The notes under the pieces: model-generated
What the model was told of the DNA's origin: nothing
The model's input: the letters and a program-made list of their open reading frames with translations, nothing else
Databases searched by the model: none
IMG/VR virus record: IMGVR_UViG_3300023223_000203
Span: 1-28,638 of that record
Direction: 5' to 3' (one strand)
DNA from: a virus
DNA length: 28,638 bases
Translations under genes and position numbers: made by a program
In this document: piece by piece, positions 9,663-28,638 of the stretch
Numbering within the stretch: the first letter of the stretch is position 1
How the letters are laid out: each line of letters begins with the position of its first letter

Positions 9663-9844
9663 GCCCCGCCCCTCATCTCTTCCAGTTCACGCTTCAGCTC
9701 ATCATGCTGCAACCGTGCTAACTCAATATTAAAATCCATATGGTGAACGCTGTAGTTGTTAAAGGGGTTTGACTCCATGCCAAGCCCATCCTTAAAGCTA
9801 CGCATCGCCGCTTCCTTTGCCGTTACCGTCACTTGGTCAATCAT
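9659..9844 (-). CDS. Small hypothetical protein, first gene of leftward early operon (61 aa)
   Basis: The ATG at 9844 follows the GGGAGAG leader of the leftward promoter. The protein is helical (MIDQVTVTAKEAAMRSFKDG to HDELKRELEEMRGGA) with a possible C-terminal coiled coil. Its stop overlaps the annealing-protein start as ATGA. A slightly longer start would begin inside the leader and is less likely. Function unknown. Confidence 0.65.
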   Translation of the reverse strand: MIDQVTVTAKEAAMRSFKDGLGMESNPFNNYSVHHMDFNIELARLQHDELKRELEEMRGGA

Positions 9845-9848
9845 GCTT

Positions 9849-9899
9849 CTCTCCCGTTTCGACAACTGAACTATAGCCCATTGGTAGATATCGTGTCAA
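9849..9899 (-). promoter_or_regulatory. Leftward early promoter (block B)
   Basis: Minus strand: TTGACA (9899-9894), 18-bp spacer, TATAGT (9875-9870), then a leader ending in AAACGGGAGAG. This is the best -35 among the repeated blocks. Unlike the other copies, it has no GTAACNNGTTAC palindrome in the spacer. Confidence 0.75.
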
Positions 9900-9912
9900 C
9901 GCCGTTTCGATG

Positions 9913-9941
9913 TTGACCTAGGTTTTTTTGTGAGCTAGTAT
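9913..9941 (+). promoter_or_regulatory. Rightward early promoter
   Basis: TTGACC, 17-bp spacer, TAGTAT, about 30 bp before the ribbon-helix-helix gene. Its -35 is only 13 bp from that of the leftward promoter, so the two promoters are back to back and probably compete. Confidence 0.55.
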
Positions 9942-9971
9942 TAATCCAAATCAACCAACAAAGAGATTCGC

Positions 9972-10115
9972 ATGAAGCAGAAATTACTCGCACCAATACG
10001 AACGACCGAGGCACAGCGTAAGTGGCTAGAAGAGGAAGCCGCTAGAACTGGTAACAGCTTTGCAGCCATCGTTCGTGGATTGATTCAGGCAAACATTAAG
10101 AAGGGGGCTAAATAG
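9972..10115 (+). CDS. Ribbon-helix-helix (Arc/CopG-like) regulator (47 aa)
   Basis: 47 residues: a short N-terminal strand (LLAPIRTT), helix A (EAQRKWLEEEAARTG), a turn (NS), and helix B (FAAIVRGLIQANIKK). That is the minimal Arc/CopG/ParD fold, which binds palindromic operators as dimers. It is the first gene of the rightward early unit, next to the divergent promoters, where a phage control gene would be expected. It is a candidate, by inference only, to bind the GTAACNNGTTAC sites. The next gene starts 1 bp after its stop. Confidence 0.7.
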   Translation: MKQKLLAPIRTTEAQRKWLEEEAARTGNSFAAIVRGLIQANIKKGAK

Positions 10116-22362: not shown

Positions 22363-24525
22363 ATGGCCAGAGAATCAAAGCAGGACAAGTTAGATAAAGT
22401 CCACAAGGAAGCGCTTGCCCGCTTTGACTTAATCGTAAACGCTGAGCGAGATAATCGTAAGCTAGCGGTAGAGGATGCCAAGTTTGCGCATCTGCCTGAT
22501 GGCCAGTGGGACGAAGATGCTATTGCCAAGCGTGCAGACCGTCCACGCTATACGATCAACCGTGTGGCTGGCGCTATTGACCAGCTTGTCGGTGATCAGC
22601 GACAGAACCGTACTAGCATCAAGGTACGCCCTGTGTCTGGTGGTGCCAATGCTGACCAAGCTAAGATATTCTCCGGTCTGATTCGTAACATTGAAGCGCA
22701 ATCTAAGGCTGAGAACGCCTATGACAGCTCGTTTGATGAGGCTATTACAGGCGGTTATGGTTGCTTCCGCGTGCTTACTGAGTTCACCGACGACGATATC
22801 TTCGAGCAAGATATCAAGATTAAGCCGTTGGATTCGGCGTCTACCTCGCTATGGTTTGACCCATCAGCCCGCGACTATGACAAGCGTGACGCTACGTACG
22901 CCTTTGTTACCCGCTTCATGACCGATGAGGCGTTTAAGCTGGCCTATCCTGGTCATGCCGCCACTTCATTCGACGTTGAACAGTTCAATAACAACCTGTG
23001 TAAGTCATGGTTCGCCAATGACCGGGTACGCATCGCTGAGTACTGGGTAAAGGTTCCCGTTACTAAAGAAATAGGTTTGATGTCTAACGGTGATGTTATC
23101 GACCTAACGGAAGAAGCTGCGGTCCTTGATGAGCTAGCTGAACAAGGCGTAACCGTAACAAAGACACGAAAGGTCAAGTCGCATAAAGTTGTCATGTACA
23201 TCATGAGCGGCTCAGAGCTTCTATCTGGCGCGCAAGATTGGGCGGGTAAGTTTATCCCACTCATCCCTGTATTTGGCAAGGTGACGCGCATAGAGGGCCA
23301 AGAGTATGTTCGAGGCTTAGTGCGGCCTGCCAAAGACCCGCAGCGTATTTACAACTACTCCAAGTCAGCAGCCATTGAAGCCACCGCATTGAGCCCGAAA
23401 GATCCTATATGGATCACTGCCAAGCAGGCTAAGGGGTATGAGGGGCGGCTCAAGAACTTCAATATACGTAATGACCCGTTCATGCTGTACAACTCTGATG
23501 ATGCGGCACCTGGAGCCCCGCAGCGTACCGGAGCCCCAGCCCTGCAATCTGCTTTAATCCAGCAAGAGCAGCAGGCGGCAATGGATATCTACGCAACCAC
23601 TGGCATGAGCCCGCCTTCGCTGGGGGCTACTGCTGAGCTTAAGTCTGGCAAGGCTATCCAGTCAGAGCAGCGCATGGGCGACCGTGGAAGCTTCATCTAC
23701 ACGGACAACCTGCACAAGAGTATAGAGTACGCCGCCGAGATCCTGATAGACCTGATCCCTCGCATCTATGACACCGAGCGCATTATCCGCGTGCTTAACA
23801 TTGACGGCACCAGCGAAGAAGTAACGATCAACGCGGCGGCCCTTAACGAGTTCAATCAGCGCGTCGTAGACCAGGAGACCGGCAAAGAAGTGATAGTCAA
23901 CGACTTGACGGTTGGCAAATATGATGCGGTCGTAGAAGCTGGGGCTAGCTTCAACACTCAGCGTCAAGAGTCAGCGCAGCAATTGATAGAGCTGGCCACT
24001 GGTTCGGCTGTGTTCGAGGAACTGAGTATTGACCTTATCGCCAAGAACCTGAATCTGGTAGAGGGCGAAGAACTCACTAAGCGACTACGCAAGAGAATGA
24101 TTCAGCAGGGTATCGCAGAGCCTACCGATGAAGAGATTGAAGAGCTGGGCCTTAATGAGCCGCAGCAGCCTGACCCGAATCAGCTAGCCCTGCTAGAGAA
24201 TGTCCAGATGCAGACTCAGGACATGATATCCAAGATTGAGGAGCGCGATGCTAAGACAGACAAGATTCTTGCTGGCATCCGAAGCCAGAACATCTCTGAT
24301 CAGGGCGAGACTGTTGCGACCCTGCAAAAGCTGGTTGATACCCTGCAGACTCAAATGGAAGCAGGCATTCCTGTAACCGCGCAAGAGCACGATATGCGCA
24401 TCAAGCAGAATGATATCGTGGTAGAGGGTCAGCAGGCGCTAGACGAAGGCCCGAACTCTGAGCAGGCAGCCGATATAGTCCAGTCTTTACAACAACAGCA
24501 GGGCCAGGAGGTGATCCCGCAATAA
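22363..24525 (+). CDS. Portal protein, P22 gp1-like
   Basis: 720 residues, close to the 725 of P22. Typical elements: AHLPDGQWDEDAIAKRADRP near the N-terminus; DQLVGDQRQNRTSIKVRPVS; ATSPK-like core regions (SAAIEATALSPKDP); and a long C-terminal helical barrel rich in Gln/Glu ending in QSLQQQQGQEVIPQ. The dodecamer forms the DNA channel, packaging-motor dock and tail attachment site. It starts 3 bp after the terminase stop; no strong ribosome site is visible. A strong terminator follows. Confidence 0.92.
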   Translation: MARESKQDKLDKVHKEALARFDLIVNAERDNRKLAVEDAKFAHLPDGQWDEDAIAKRADRPRYTINRVAGAIDQLVGDQRQNRTSIKVRPVSGGANADQAKIFSGLIRNIEAQSKAENAYDSSFDEAITGGYGCFRVLTEFTDDDIFEQDIKIKPLDSASTSLWFDPSARDYDKRDATYAFVTRFMTDEAFKLAYPGHAATSFDVEQFNNNLCKSWFANDRVRIAEYWVKVPVTKEIGLMSNGDVIDLTEEAAVLDELAEQGVTVTKTRKVKSHKVVMYIMSGSELLSGAQDWAGKFIPLIPVFGKVTRIEGQEYVRGLVRPAKDPQRIYNYSKSAAIEATALSPKDPIWITAKQAKGYEGRLKNFNIRNDPFMLYNSDDAAPGAPQRTGAPALQSALIQQEQQAAMDIYATTGMSPPSLGATAELKSGKAIQSEQRMGDRGSFIYTDNLHKSIEYAAEILIDLIPRIYDTERIIRVLNIDGTSEEVTINAAALNEFNQRVVDQETGKEVIVNDLTVGKYDAVVEAGASFNTQRQESAQQLIELATGSAVFEELSIDLIAKNLNLVEGEELTKRLRKRMIQQGIAEPTDEEIEELGLNEPQQPDPNQLALLENVQMQTQDMISKIEERDAKTDKILAGIRSQNISDQGETVATLQKLVDTLQTQMEAGIPVTAQEHDMRIKQNDIVVEGQQALDEGPNSEQAADIVQSLQQQQGQEVIPQ

Positions 24526-24546: not shown

Positions 24547-24569
24547 AGCCCCTTAACTGGGGCTTTTTT
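24547..24569 (+). terminator. Rho-independent terminator after portal
   Basis: AGCCCC-ttaact-GGGGCT with a T6 run on the plus strand, 22 bp after the portal stop. This separates terminase-portal transcription from the scaffold-coat unit. Confidence 0.88.
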
Positions 24570-24610
24570 ACGCCTATCGCAAAGTGCATCCACTCCATTT
24601 ATACGTATTG

Positions 24611-24638
24611 TTGCTTGCATTCATTAAATTGATATACT
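24611..24638 (+). promoter_or_regulatory. Scaffold/coat promoter
   Basis: TTGCTT, 16-bp spacer, TATACT, in an AT-rich stretch between the portal terminator and the scaffolding gene. The -10 overlaps a LexA-type box. Confidence 0.6.
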
Positions 24639-24654
24639 GTACATGTTCACAGTT
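24635..24654. promoter_or_regulatory. LexA (SOS) box candidate
   Basis: TACTGT-acatgttc-ACAGTT matches the CTGT-N8-ACAG core and flanking TA of the gammaproteobacterial LexA operator. It covers the -10 of the scaffold/coat promoter. A second ACAG at 24657-24660 also forms a perfect 7-bp inverted repeat (CTGTACA with TGTACAG), so a phage repressor could be the binder instead. Confidence 0.6.
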
Positions 24655-24714
24655 GTACAGATATACAGGTACGCGACCTAATCGCGGCTAACTACTCAGT
24701 AATGAGGCGAGACA

Positions 24715-25479
24715 ATGACAGACGCTGCACTAGCAGATGAAGGCCTGGCCCCGCAAGACGTTGCACCGGAGCAACCAGACGACGGAATCAAGCTTGACTC
24801 AGCACAAGAGGTATCAGCACCTCTAGCCGAAGAAAAGCCACAGAATGACGGCTTTCAGAAGCGAATTAACAAAGTAACGGCCGATAAGTACGCAGAAAAG
24901 CGCCGTGCTGATGAGTTGGAACGCAAGCTAAACGAAATGACAGCGGCGGCACCAGCCACTCAAGCACAAGCAAGCACAGCAGCGCCAACGCTGGAGCAGT
25001 TTGATTTCGATCAGGAAGCATTTAATGCAGCTTTGATCAATCACGCTGTAGATCAGCGAATGGCAGCGGCAACACAGAAGCAAGACCAGGCAGTGGCAGC
25101 AGGCAAGCAAGCTGATGTGTCCAAGGCATTTAATGTCAAGGTTGCAGACTTCACAGCTAAAACGCCAGACTATCAAGAGGTGATCGGGAATATCCCTGAG
25201 CTGCCTGGAGAAGTCTTTGACGCCATTATGCAAGCCGAGAACGGGCCTGAATTGGCTTATGCTCTTGGTCAGCGACTTGACCTTGCCGATGAAATTGCCA
25301 GTTCCAGCCCTATGGTTGCTGCAATGAAGCTAGGCGAACTAACTGCACAATTGGCCAATGTAAAACCTACCCCTAAACAAAGTGCAGCGCCTGCGCCTAT
25401 TGAGCCGGTAGCTTCTGGTGGAGCATTGGATAAAGACTTGTCCGATATGACAGTAGAAGAAATCTGTGCATTAGACTAG
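24715..25479 (+). CDS. Scaffolding protein
   Basis: 254 residues, acidic, Ala/Gln/Glu-rich and mostly helical, between portal and coat, as in P22 (gp8). Central TLEQFDFDQEAFNAALINHA and SSSPMVAAMKLGELTAQLA blocks occur in scaffolds of this type. The C-terminal DKDLSDMTVEEICALD is helical; in P22 the scaffold C-terminus binds coat. Start after a weak GAGGCGAG site. Confidence 0.82.
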   Translation: MTDAALADEGLAPQDVAPEQPDDGIKLDSAQEVSAPLAEEKPQNDGFQKRINKVTADKYAEKRRADELERKLNEMTAAAPATQAQASTAAPTLEQFDFDQEAFNAALINHAVDQRMAAATQKQDQAVAAGKQADVSKAFNVKVADFTAKTPDYQEVIGNIPELPGEVFDAIMQAENGPELAYALGQRLDLADEIASSSPMVAAMKLGELTAQLANVKPTPKQSAAPAPIEPVASGGALDKDLSDMTVEEICALD

Positions 25480-25505: not shown

Positions 25506-26735
25506 ATGGCTAATGATTTTAAGAATACGGACCTTGTAACCAAGTTCGCCGTAAAAGAGTTCAAAAACGCGCTGATGTTGGGCGGTAAAGTTGATCGCCA
25601 GCTAGATGACAGCAAAATCTTCTCTGGCAAGATTGGCGCTACTGCGCGCGTTCGCCGCCCGGTAGAGTTTGTTGCTACTGATGGTGCAACCCTGGTCAAG
25701 CAGGACATCGAAGAAGGCACCGTATCTGTGACCTTGGATCAGCGTAAGCACGTAGCTTTTGCTGTGACCTCCGAAGACCTGACCTTGCGGATTGAAGACG
25801 CTAACGAGCGTTATATCAAGCCTGCAATGAAGCGACTGGCCCAGCAGGTAGAAAGCGCAATTGCTGCTAGCTACACCGAGATTCCTAACTTCACAGGAAC
25901 CCCCGGTACTGGTCCAAGCACCTTCTTGGACGTTGCTAATGCTGGAGCTAAGTTGTCCGAGCTAGGCGTGCCGATGGAAGATCGTAGCGCGTTCTTTGAT
26001 TCTCAATCCACTGTCACCCTGTCCAATGGCCTGCAAAGCGTGTTCCCTCAAGATATCGCCCGCAAGGCAATTGAGATGGCTAAGATTGGTACTTATGGCG
26101 GCTTCGATCTGTTCGAGAACCAGAGCCTGAAGATGCACACCGTAGGTAACTATGGCGGTACTCCTTTGGTAGATGGTGCCGCTCAGAACGTGACGTACGC
26201 GGCCTCTAAAGATACCGATACCCAAAGCCTGGTTACTGATGGATGGACTAACGATATCACCGGCATCTTGCTGGCTGGCGACGTTTTCACCATTGAAGGC
26301 GTGAACGCTGTAAACCGCGAAACCAAGGAGTCTACCGGCTCTCTGGCTCAGTTCGTGGTGACTGCTGACGCTAACTCTGGCTCAACTACTGGCCCGTCTA
26401 CCCTGACTATTGCCCCGGCAATTATCACTAGCGGCCCATACCAGACTGTTGATGCGGCCCCGGCTGACGATGCGGCTATTGTCGTTATCACTGGTGTGGC
26501 TAACAGTCAGCACCGTCAGAACCTGGCCTTCCACCCGAACGCCATTACCCTGGCAACCGTTCAGATTGATATGCCAAGTGCTGGCGCGGAATCTAGTCGC
26601 GCTACCGTTGACGGCATCTCTATTCGTACTGTTCGTCAGTATGCCATCGGTGACGATGACGAGACTTTGCGTTTCGACATCTTGTTCGGTGTGAAGGTTC
26701 AAAACCGAAGCTTTGCGAACCGCATCACCTCGTAA
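25506..26735 (+). CDS. Major capsid protein, P22 coat-like
   Basis: 409 residues, near the 430 of P22 gp5. The N-terminus MANDFKNTDLVTKFAVKEFK, then VRRPVEFVATDGATLVKQDI and HVAFAVTSEDLTLRIEDANE, are characteristic of the P22 coat family. A central region with Gly/Asn-rich loops (FTGTPGTGPST, NYGGTPLVDG) fits the inserted domain. The C-terminus TVRQYAIGDDDETLRFDILF completes the HK97 fold. Ribosome site AAGGAAT. A hairpin terminator follows immediately. Confidence 0.93.
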   Translation: MANDFKNTDLVTKFAVKEFKNALMLGGKVDRQLDDSKIFSGKIGATARVRRPVEFVATDGATLVKQDIEEGTVSVTLDQRKHVAFAVTSEDLTLRIEDANERYIKPAMKRLAQQVESAIAASYTEIPNFTGTPGTGPSTFLDVANAGAKLSELGVPMEDRSAFFDSQSTVTLSNGLQSVFPQDIARKAIEMAKIGTYGGFDLFENQSLKMHTVGNYGGTPLVDGAAQNVTYAASKDTDTQSLVTDGWTNDITGILLAGDVFTIEGVNAVNRETKESTGSLAQFVVTADANSGSTTGPSTLTIAPAIITSGPYQTVDAAPADDAAIVVITGVANSQHRQNLAFHPNAITLATVQIDMPSAGAESSRATVDGISIRTVRQYAIGDDDETLRFDILFGVKVQNRSFANRITS

Positions 26736-26741
26736 GATAGC

Positions 26742-26762
26742 CGGGGGCTGTAATGGCCCCCG
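26742..26762 (+). terminator. Terminator after coat gene
   Basis: CGGGGGC-tgtaatg-GCCCCCG, a perfect 7-bp stem followed by CTTTCCTTT. Likely partial, since the connector genes continue in the same direction. Confidence 0.75.
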
Positions 26763-26788
26763 CTTTCCTTTAACTATCTGGAATATTT

Positions 26789-27138: not shown

Positions 27139-27576
27139 ATGGCCACCGCCTCGCACTTCATCACGCGCGCACTGATTAGGCTTGGCGTTAAGACTGCCGA
27201 GGCACCTCTAGAGCCATCTGAATTGCAAGATGGCTTAGACCTGCTTAACGACCTGATGGCCCTTTGGGGTGTGGATGGTACGCTTCCAGGTGCTGCGCCG
27301 GTAGCTGATGCACAGGATGAGCTGAGAGCGCCTCGTTACGCGCACGCTGCAATCATTCCGCATCTGGCTATTCTTATGGCCCCCGAGTATTCAAAGACTG
27401 TAGAGCTAGCGCTAGCTGCGGCCGCAGAGGACGCGATGAACGGCTTGCTTCGGCTAACAGTTAACATTGGCGAAGTAGAATACCCCTCAACTCTGCCGAT
27501 TGGGTCCGGTAATGAGTGCTCAAACTTTAATATTGAGCGCCGGTTCTTCCCTGAGAACACCAAGGAGAACTTCTAG
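27139..27576 (+). CDS. Head completion / tail accessory factor, P22 gp4-like
   Basis: 145 residues. ITRALIRLGVKTAEAPLEPS, then LQDGLDLLNDLMALWG and the ending SNFNIERRFFPE, match P22 gp4-type adaptors, which bind under the portal and start tail assembly. Ribosome site AAGGA. Its stop TAG shares a G with the GTG of the gp10 homologue. Confidence 0.82.
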   Translation: MATASHFITRALIRLGVKTAEAPLEPSELQDGLDLLNDLMALWGVDGTLPGAAPVADAQDELRAPRYAHAAIIPHLAILMAPEYSKTVELALAAAAEDAMNGLLRLTVNIGEVEYPSTLPIGSGNECSNFNIERRFFPENTKENF

Positions 27577-27932
27577 TGGCACGCGTACCACTGCCAATAA
27601 GCACGGGCTTCTACCAGAGCGACTCTCTGCCGCTGTCGGCTCAGCGCTGCATTAACTGGGTACCTGTGATTCCTCAGTCTGACGGACCATCACTGAATAG
27701 CCGGGCATTGTTCCCGCCTTCAGGGCTTGGTACGTTCGCTACTCTGACGGGGATTAATCGCGGGTCCATCTTAGTTAATAACGTGCCGTTCTTTGTTAAC
27801 GGGAATAGCCTGTTCTCTATTGATTCTGCTGGCGTATCGACTAATCACGGCACTATTGAGGGATCAGGCCGCGTATCGATGGCCACCAATACCACGACTG
27901 ATAGCGTGTCAAAGATTGCTATCAGATTTTAA
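27576..27932 (+). CDS. Packaged-DNA stabilisation protein, P22 gp10-like, N-terminal part (frameshifted)
   Basis: GTG start with AGGAG upstream. The sequence MARVPLPISTGFYQSDSLPL, then CINWVPVIPQ and EGSGRVSMA, is typical of gp10-like tail hub proteins of about 470 residues, but it stops after 118. The rest of the protein continues in the +1 frame. Comparing the expected order of strands, about 20-25 residues after GSGRVSMA also seem missing, so this may be a deletion rather than a single-base shift. Confidence 0.75.
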   Translation: MARVPLPISTGFYQSDSLPLSAQRCINWVPVIPQSDGPSLNSRALFPPSGLGTFATLTGINRGSILVNNVPFFVNGNSLFSIDSAGVSTNHGTIEGSGRVSMATNTTTDSVSKIAIRF

Positions 27933-28638
27933 GCCATCGGATACCGTAGAGTTTAAAGATGGACTGTATGTATATACAGCATCAAACGGCCTGACCTTCT
28001 TCCACTCAGAGCTTAATAGTCCTGGCGACATTGATCCGCTTGAGTTTGGCACGGCTGAGATTGATCCAGATCTGATCGTTGCGTCTTTCGTCAACCATAA
28101 CGAGCTGTTCCTGTTTGGCGAGGACACTATCGAGCTATTCCAGACCGTAAATAGTGCAGGTTTTGCATTCCAGCGGATCCCCGGCGCCAATATCCAGAAG
28201 GGCGCACATACACCGTTTGGCATTGCTGACTTCGATAACTCAATGGTGTTTATCGGCGGCGGCAAGAAGGAGCGCACGGCTATTTGGCGGGTAACTGGTA
28301 GCTCGTCTGCTGTGAAGTTATCCACATCAGCTATCGATAACGCCATACAGGAGTTTACCCGGGACGAGATAGGTAACGCCTTTACTATGACCTATGCCGA
28401 GGGCGGGAACTACTTTGCAGCTTTCACCTTTGAGTCCGACCGAATTCCAAGCAAGACATTTGTTTACGACGCCACATCATCCGCGCTATCAGGTCGCTCT
28501 GTATGGCACGAGCGGCAATCAGGCGTAACAGATGATCGCTGGCGCGTGCAATCCATCGTAAGCGCTTATGGTGAGCTACTGGCGCACACAAAATATACTC
28601 ACTCACTGACTCACACACACACACACACACACACACTC
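27901..28638 (+). CDS. gp10-like protein, continuation in the +1 frame (3' truncated)
   Basis: From about 27928 the +1 frame reads FKPSDTVEFKDGLYVYTASN, then LEFGTAEIDPDLIVASFVN and SMVFIGGGKKERTAIWRV, standard parts of gp10-like beta-propeller hubs. It runs off the window edge. Up to about YGELLA the sequence looks like a normal family member; the last 15 or so residues are Thr-His repeats from a (CA)n run. The frame's left limit is not a true start. Confidence 0.75.
   Translation, partial: MACQRLLSDFKPSDTVEFKDGLYVYTASNGLTFFHSELNSPGDIDPLEFGTAEIDPDLIVASFVNHNELFLFGEDTIELFQTVNSAGFAFQRIPGANIQKGAHTPFGIADFDNSMVFIGGGKKERTAIWRVTGSSSAVKLSTSAIDNAIQEFTRDEIGNAFTMTYAEGGNYFAAFTFESDRIPSKTFVYDATSSALSGRSVWHERQSGVTDDRWRVQSIVSAYGELLAHTKYTHSLTHTHTHTHTL
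28612..28636. repeat. (CA)n run at the window end
   Basis: About 12 CA units at the edge of the sequence, within a gene that otherwise has normal codon use. Confidence 0.9.

Follow-up and report, generated by a model that had tools for sequence, protein, structure and literature searches.

Tandem LexA-type boxes and a covarying leader pseudoknot ahead of the scaffold and coat genes of a P22-like podovirus

In phage P22, the head scaffolding protein is subject to autoregulation. Head genes can also be placed under a host regulator: at the capsid promoter of GIL01, LexA acts with the phage protein gp7 to repress transcription through tandem boxes (PMC6182141). GIL01 is temperate, and it is the only published case of LexA acting on a capsid promoter that we found. 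Tandem LexA sites are also known from plasmid bacteriocin genes; at the colicin E8 gene, LexA occupies two overlapping sites and blocks the polymerase (PMC4482635). Here, we report an analysis of a 28,638-nt stretch of viral DNA (the window) centred on the spacer between its portal and scaffold genes. The spacer holds two overlapping LexA-type boxes on the scaffold promoter, followed by a short pseudoknot just ahead of the scaffold gene. Judged from sequence, we consider it probable, with some reserve, that the spacer provides two layers of control, a tandem LexA operator and then a leader pseudoknot, for a self-contained scaffold–coat unit.

Organization of the scaffold–coat unit

Protein-family matches along the window identify the 28.6-kb virus record as a fragment of a P22-like podovirus, from which roughly one-quarter of the genome is probably absent. 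Its gene order is terminase large subunit, portal, scaffold, coat and then connector genes. The unit and its control region comprise the following features:

22363–24525, portal gene
24547–24570, plus strand, intrinsic terminator 3′ of the portal gene, AGCCCCTTAACTGGGGCT then TTTTTT
24611–24616, plus strand, −35-like hexamer TTGCTT, 16 bp upstream of TATACT
24630–24638, plus strand, extended −10, TG-A-TATACT (TG at 24630–24631, hexamer at 24633–24638)
24635–24654, plus strand, LexA-type box 1, TACTGTACATGTTCACAGTT, matrix score 18.8
24651–24670, plus strand, LexA-type box 2, AGTTGTACAGATATACAGGT, score 12.4, in tandem with box 1 at an offset of 16
24715–25479, plus strand, head scaffolding protein gene (phrog_8865, E 1.4e-41)
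25506–26735, plus strand, major head (coat) protein gene (phrog_283, E 3.8e-83)
26742–26771, plus strand, intrinsic terminator after the coat gene, closing the scaffold–coat unit (9-bp stem CGGGGGC...GCCCCCG, T-rich tail)

Because terminators lie on either side of the scaffold and coat genes, these form an isolated transcription unit. An earlier first-pass annotation of the sequence had proposed both a terminator separating the head genes from the portal transcript and a TACTGT-N8-ACAGTT site over the −10 of the scaffold/coat promoter. Both are confirmed, the former at 24547–24570 and the latter as an exact site at 24637–24652 that overlaps the extended −10.

By sequence, the scaffold promoter is only moderate: it scores 8/12 plus TG, escaped a 9/12 promoter scan and reaches P 0.12 when its own stretch is shuffled for comparison. 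Across 47 loci, a sigma-70 promoter ahead of the scaffold gene was detected at P 0.05 or less in 12, so that we rejected a universal promoter at this position in favour of a common one; no clear scaffold promoter was found in the relative L003. In another relative, L006, the scaffold promoter (L006:1-300) reads TTGACA, 18 bp, TAATAT, and a perfect 12-bp inverted repeat, AACCTATTGGGG/CCCCAATAGGTT, lies over its −10. This repeat is a putative operator of another kind, placed where the window has its boxes. The portal–scaffold spacers of L010 and L018 carry boxA-like stretches (CGCTCTTTGACAA and ATCTTTGACAA) 5′ of the pseudoknot described below.

Several observations concern the rest of the window. 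The gene for a P22 gp10-like head-closure protein (27576–28638) is broken by a frameshift near 27910, with open reading frames (ORFs) 27576–27932 and 27793–28638 both matching phrog_578; either the gene is truly disrupted or the frameshift is a sequencing error. A low-complexity, CA-rich run (CACACACAC..., 28590–28638), probably an assembly artefact, forms the end of the contig. At the left edge, ORF 2–1336, beside a tail fibre gene, matches phrog_21712, labelled ‘major head protein’; the true coat gene is elsewhere. A divergent early region (9840–9971) contains the inverted repeat GTGTCAAC...GTTGAC and no LexA box, and is flanked by a small ORF (9972–10115) that by eye resembles a ribbon–helix–helix protein.

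Tandem LexA-type boxes

The core of box 1, CTGTACATGTTCACAG (24637–24652), has 0 mismatches to CTGT-N8-ACAG and an AT-rich centre, as is typical of gammaproteobacterial LexA operators, and the box overlaps the extended −10, as expected of a LexA operator. Directly behind it lies the weaker box 2, absent from the first-pass annotation, with one mismatch to CTGT-N8-ACAG; as in the boxes of the relatives L024 and L003, T or G replaces the first C. With an offset of 16 bp, the two boxes fall within the 15–16-bp spacing of colicin-type tandem operators.

We scored these sites with a LexA matrix of 16 E. coli boxes, which may not represent the motif of this phage’s host. By this E. coli-box matrix, a site of box 1 strength is expected 0.002 times per window, and the score of 18.8 falls within the leave-one-out range of real boxes (7.9–25.1); box 2 is the third-best site in the window. 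The best (24.1) is at 27962–27981, inside the head-closure gene, and a lone LexA match is therefore not decisive. We rejected this site as a second LexA operator, as it lies within a coding gene and relatives keep the protein motif and not the DNA site. The motif CTGT-N8-ACAG was found 2 times in the window, against 0.33 expected. The pair of boxes counts for more than either box singly. Tandem pairs (both sites scoring at least 11.7, offset 14–17) numbered 0 in a 148.6-Mb Markov-1 simulation and, in about 2.5 Mb of fetched DNA outside the window, occurred only in L003, L004 and L024 (also numbered L113).

These three pairs all lie in the homologous portal–scaffold spacer, at an offset of 15, at loci whose coat and portal are 71–72% and 59% identical to those of the window. 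In an alignment set by hand, the window and L024 agree at 7/8 half-site positions of box 1 and at 2/8 positions of its spacer; box 2, aligned in the same way, is kept more evenly, which may be partly because its end overlaps a pseudoknot strand. The comparison with related phages that the first-pass annotation had suggested gave a divided answer: tandem boxes recur in these three relatives, if in degenerate form, and are absent from most others, including the nearest by portal identity, L115 (65%) and L116 (64%). CTGT-N8-ACAG is present in 2/22 records searched, the window included. The lack of boxes in L115 and L116 indicates that the arrangement is lineage-specific, and the window and its box-bearing relatives may descend from one event. 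A phage-collection search for direct DNA relatives of the spacer found none. Scanning viral contigs for the tandem-plus-leader pattern yielded 110 stretches, which we set aside: only L248 had similarity to the portal and scaffold (about 30% identity), and its matched stretch showed no leader hairpin.

Leader pseudoknot

Comparison of the spacers revealed that most relatives carry, just 5′ of the scaffold start, a hairpin whose stem varies widely among them. In the window, the hairpin and its 5′ flank are arranged as follows:

24667–24669, plus strand, pseudoknot S1, 5′ strand AGG, pairing with CCU at 24677–24679 (flank–loop pairing test); overlaps the end of box 2
24672–24676, plus strand, pseudoknot S2, 5′ strand CGCGA (covariation; model match at 24662–24698)
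24677–24679, plus strand, pseudoknot S1, 3′ strand CCU, within the hairpin loop (flank–loop pairing test)
24682–24686, plus strand, pseudoknot S2, 3′ strand UCGCG (covariation)
24695–24706, plus strand, possible small hairpin CUCA-GUAA-UGAG over the Shine–Dalgarno sequence (GAGG, 24704–24707), like hairpins in several relatives; weak statistics

Compensatory changes support both stems. When 30 loci were aligned by sequence with MAFFT, 90.4% of cells in the S2 hairpin were paired and 60 showed changes in both strands, compared with 17.7 in shuffles; the corresponding values from a model-fitted alignment, which is biased toward the structure, are 93.2% and 70 versus 21.4. The 5′ flank is complementary to the hairpin loop, and this pairing also shows compensatory change: the 30 close loci have a mean of 3.7 Watson–Crick flank–loop pairs versus 2.32 with loops permuted, and 17 more distant loci 3.29 versus 1.72, in both sets exceeding all 5000 permutations. 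Counting the two stems together gave the same answer in two separate subsets. Covariation of the two stems thus extends over about 45 loci, among them those of isolated Vibrio, Shewanella and Thalassomonas phages, and the geometry (a first stem of 3–5 bp, a crossing of 2–3 nt and a second stem of 5–6 bp) is that of an H-type pseudoknot.

The model also matched phages outside its building set (Vibrio 41E34.2, D478 and FGH, and Shewanella X14); in the more distant set it gave no match at E 1, and similar hairpins are visible there. When 11 sources were compared with Rfam, none matched at the gathering score, and the hairpin region itself stayed without a match even at E values up to 10. No pseudoknot in a scaffold leader turned up in a search of the literature. 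We rejected thermodynamic folding alone as a guide to the element (z 0.70); covariation is what reveals it. The small hairpin over the Shine–Dalgarno sequence, at P 0.05 or less in 9/47 loci, was likewise set aside as suggestive only.

The element stays with the scaffold gene. In L115, L132, L122 and L021, extra ORFs occur between portal and scaffold, always 5′ of the pseudoknot, and the portal–scaffold spacer of these phages is an insertion hot spot. The scaffold genes of L198 and L206 (Vibrio phages 41E34.2 and D478) are annotated as beginning upstream of the leader hairpin; their translation probably begins at ATGAGTGAC, after it. The leader pseudoknot is a candidate translational control element, and its identification is the more secure, and possibly the more general, result compared with the LexA operator.

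Proposed mechanism and alternative explanations

From these elements we infer promoter activity, LexA occupancy, an SOS response and an effect of the pseudoknot on translation. Two host LexA dimers, bound side by side over the −10 and start region, would keep RNA polymerase off the scaffold–coat promoter. Cleavage of LexA driven by RecA would free the promoter, in response to damage, to intermediates of phage replication or to breakdown of host DNA. The H-type pseudoknot, just 5′ of the scaffold Shine–Dalgarno sequence, would then probably tune scaffold translation. The first-pass annotation had likewise proposed LexA control of this promoter; the tandem boxes, their presence in three relatives and their ColE1-like layout speak for this proposal, and the absence of boxes from most relatives speaks against it.

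LexA would here time head production, not govern lysogeny, or could silence head genes in a carrier state. We searched the window and 18 related records, five of them 36–38 kb long, for a tyrosine integrase or S24 repressor, and 10 records for a serine recombinase, and found none. The lineage therefore looks virulent, although the records may be fragments, and on the same grounds we rejected an SOS-inducible prophage switch in the records searched, the window being incomplete. The cultured relatives, with roughly 27–38% identity in coat, portal or scaffold, have mostly gammaproteobacterial hosts, and gammaproteobacteria hold nearly all canonical SOS boxes (PMC12527982).

The strongest competing explanation, which we nevertheless judge improbable, is that the NTGT-N8-ACAG tandem serves a repressor or late regulator encoded by the phage, whose half-sites resemble those of LexA by coincidence. 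Such a protein could be encoded in the missing quarter of the genome or by the small ribbon–helix–helix-like ORF at 9972–10115, and the different palindrome over the −10 of L006 suggests that different operators at this position may serve different phages. A candidate binding site would be the 24-bp palindrome CTGTACA...TGTACAG of the window, which the first-pass annotation had raised as a possible phage-repressor site and which arises because boxes 1 and 2 each contain TGTACA. However, the window holds no second copy of this palindrome or of the operator, and the palindrome is not present in L024, L003 or L004, which weakens that reading; we rejected the palindrome as a phage operator. Nor was an S24 repressor found in the window or any of the 18 related records, and the half-sites follow the LexA consensus and are arranged as in ColE1. 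With the box 1 half-sites kept while their spacer diverged, and the larger palindrome unconserved, LexA is favoured over a private phage repressor.

We give a still lower probability to a constitutive promoter followed by the pseudoknot leader, where LexA can bind but has no consequence for infection, the phage having induced SOS or removed LexA at an early stage. Many relatives do have a scaffold-proximal promoter and no LexA boxes, and the absence of an integrase from 19 records suggests that the lineage is virulent, so that repression would seldom be relevant; yet retention of the half-sites despite divergence of the box 1 spacer would not be expected. Least likely of all is chance resemblance in an AT-rich promoter spacer bound by no regulator: a perfect CTGT-N8-ACAG does occur within a coding gene of the window and close relatives manage without boxes, but a box 1-strength site is rare by expectation and the tandem pair, never seen in simulation, recurs at the homologous site in three relatives.

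Returning to the tandem LexA operator and leader pseudoknot, if LexA does act on the capsid promoter of this virulent-looking phage, a host damage sensor would serve as a head-production timer outside a lysogenic switch. We further hypothesize that the pseudoknot is tied to scaffold autoregulation. A bolder proposal, which we advance as speculative, is that in a large clade of P22-like podoviruses the scaffolding or coat protein recognizes it as an autogenous translational operator and that, in the lineage of the window, a colicin-type LexA operator is stacked above it; the host SOS state and then feedback from assembly would in turn gate the capsid output of a phage with no lysogeny module. 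The balance between scaffold and coat synthesis in tailed phages is a long-standing question to which the pseudoknot offers a concrete, testable candidate answer, one open to study in cultured Vibrio, Shewanella and Thalassomonas phages.

Comparison with known systems

The box arrangement is closest to that of colicin operators (ColE1 cea and colicin E8 cea8), in which two overlapping LexA boxes likewise follow one another across the −10 and start region. In a ColE1 plasmid record, the two boxes score 21.6 and 15.1 and are offset by 15, as in L024, whereas the offset in the window is 16. In contrast to the window, these operators control a plasmid bacteriocin gene and not phage head genes.

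In the gene controlled, the closest parallel is the P3 promoter of tectivirus GIL01, a late promoter of capsid (and lysis) genes with tandem LexA boxes (PMC6182141). SOS control of head-protein synthesis, which the first-pass annotation had called unusual, thus has a precedent. However, P3 operates in a Gram-positive host with a Gram-positive LexA motif and requires the phage proteins gp7 and activator gp6, and GIL01 is a temperate linear replicon unrelated to the phage of the window.

P22 genes 1-8-5 (portal, scaffold and coat) share gene order and protein families with the window, but only 13 nt separate portal from scaffold in P22, leaving room for neither the operator nor the pseudoknot. 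For the leader, the nearest analogue is T4 gene 32, in which a short leader pseudoknot also lies 5′ of the Shine–Dalgarno sequence of an abundant phage protein (PMC535899); gene 32, however, has a known autogenous repressor, and its sequences and the gene itself are unrelated to those of the window.
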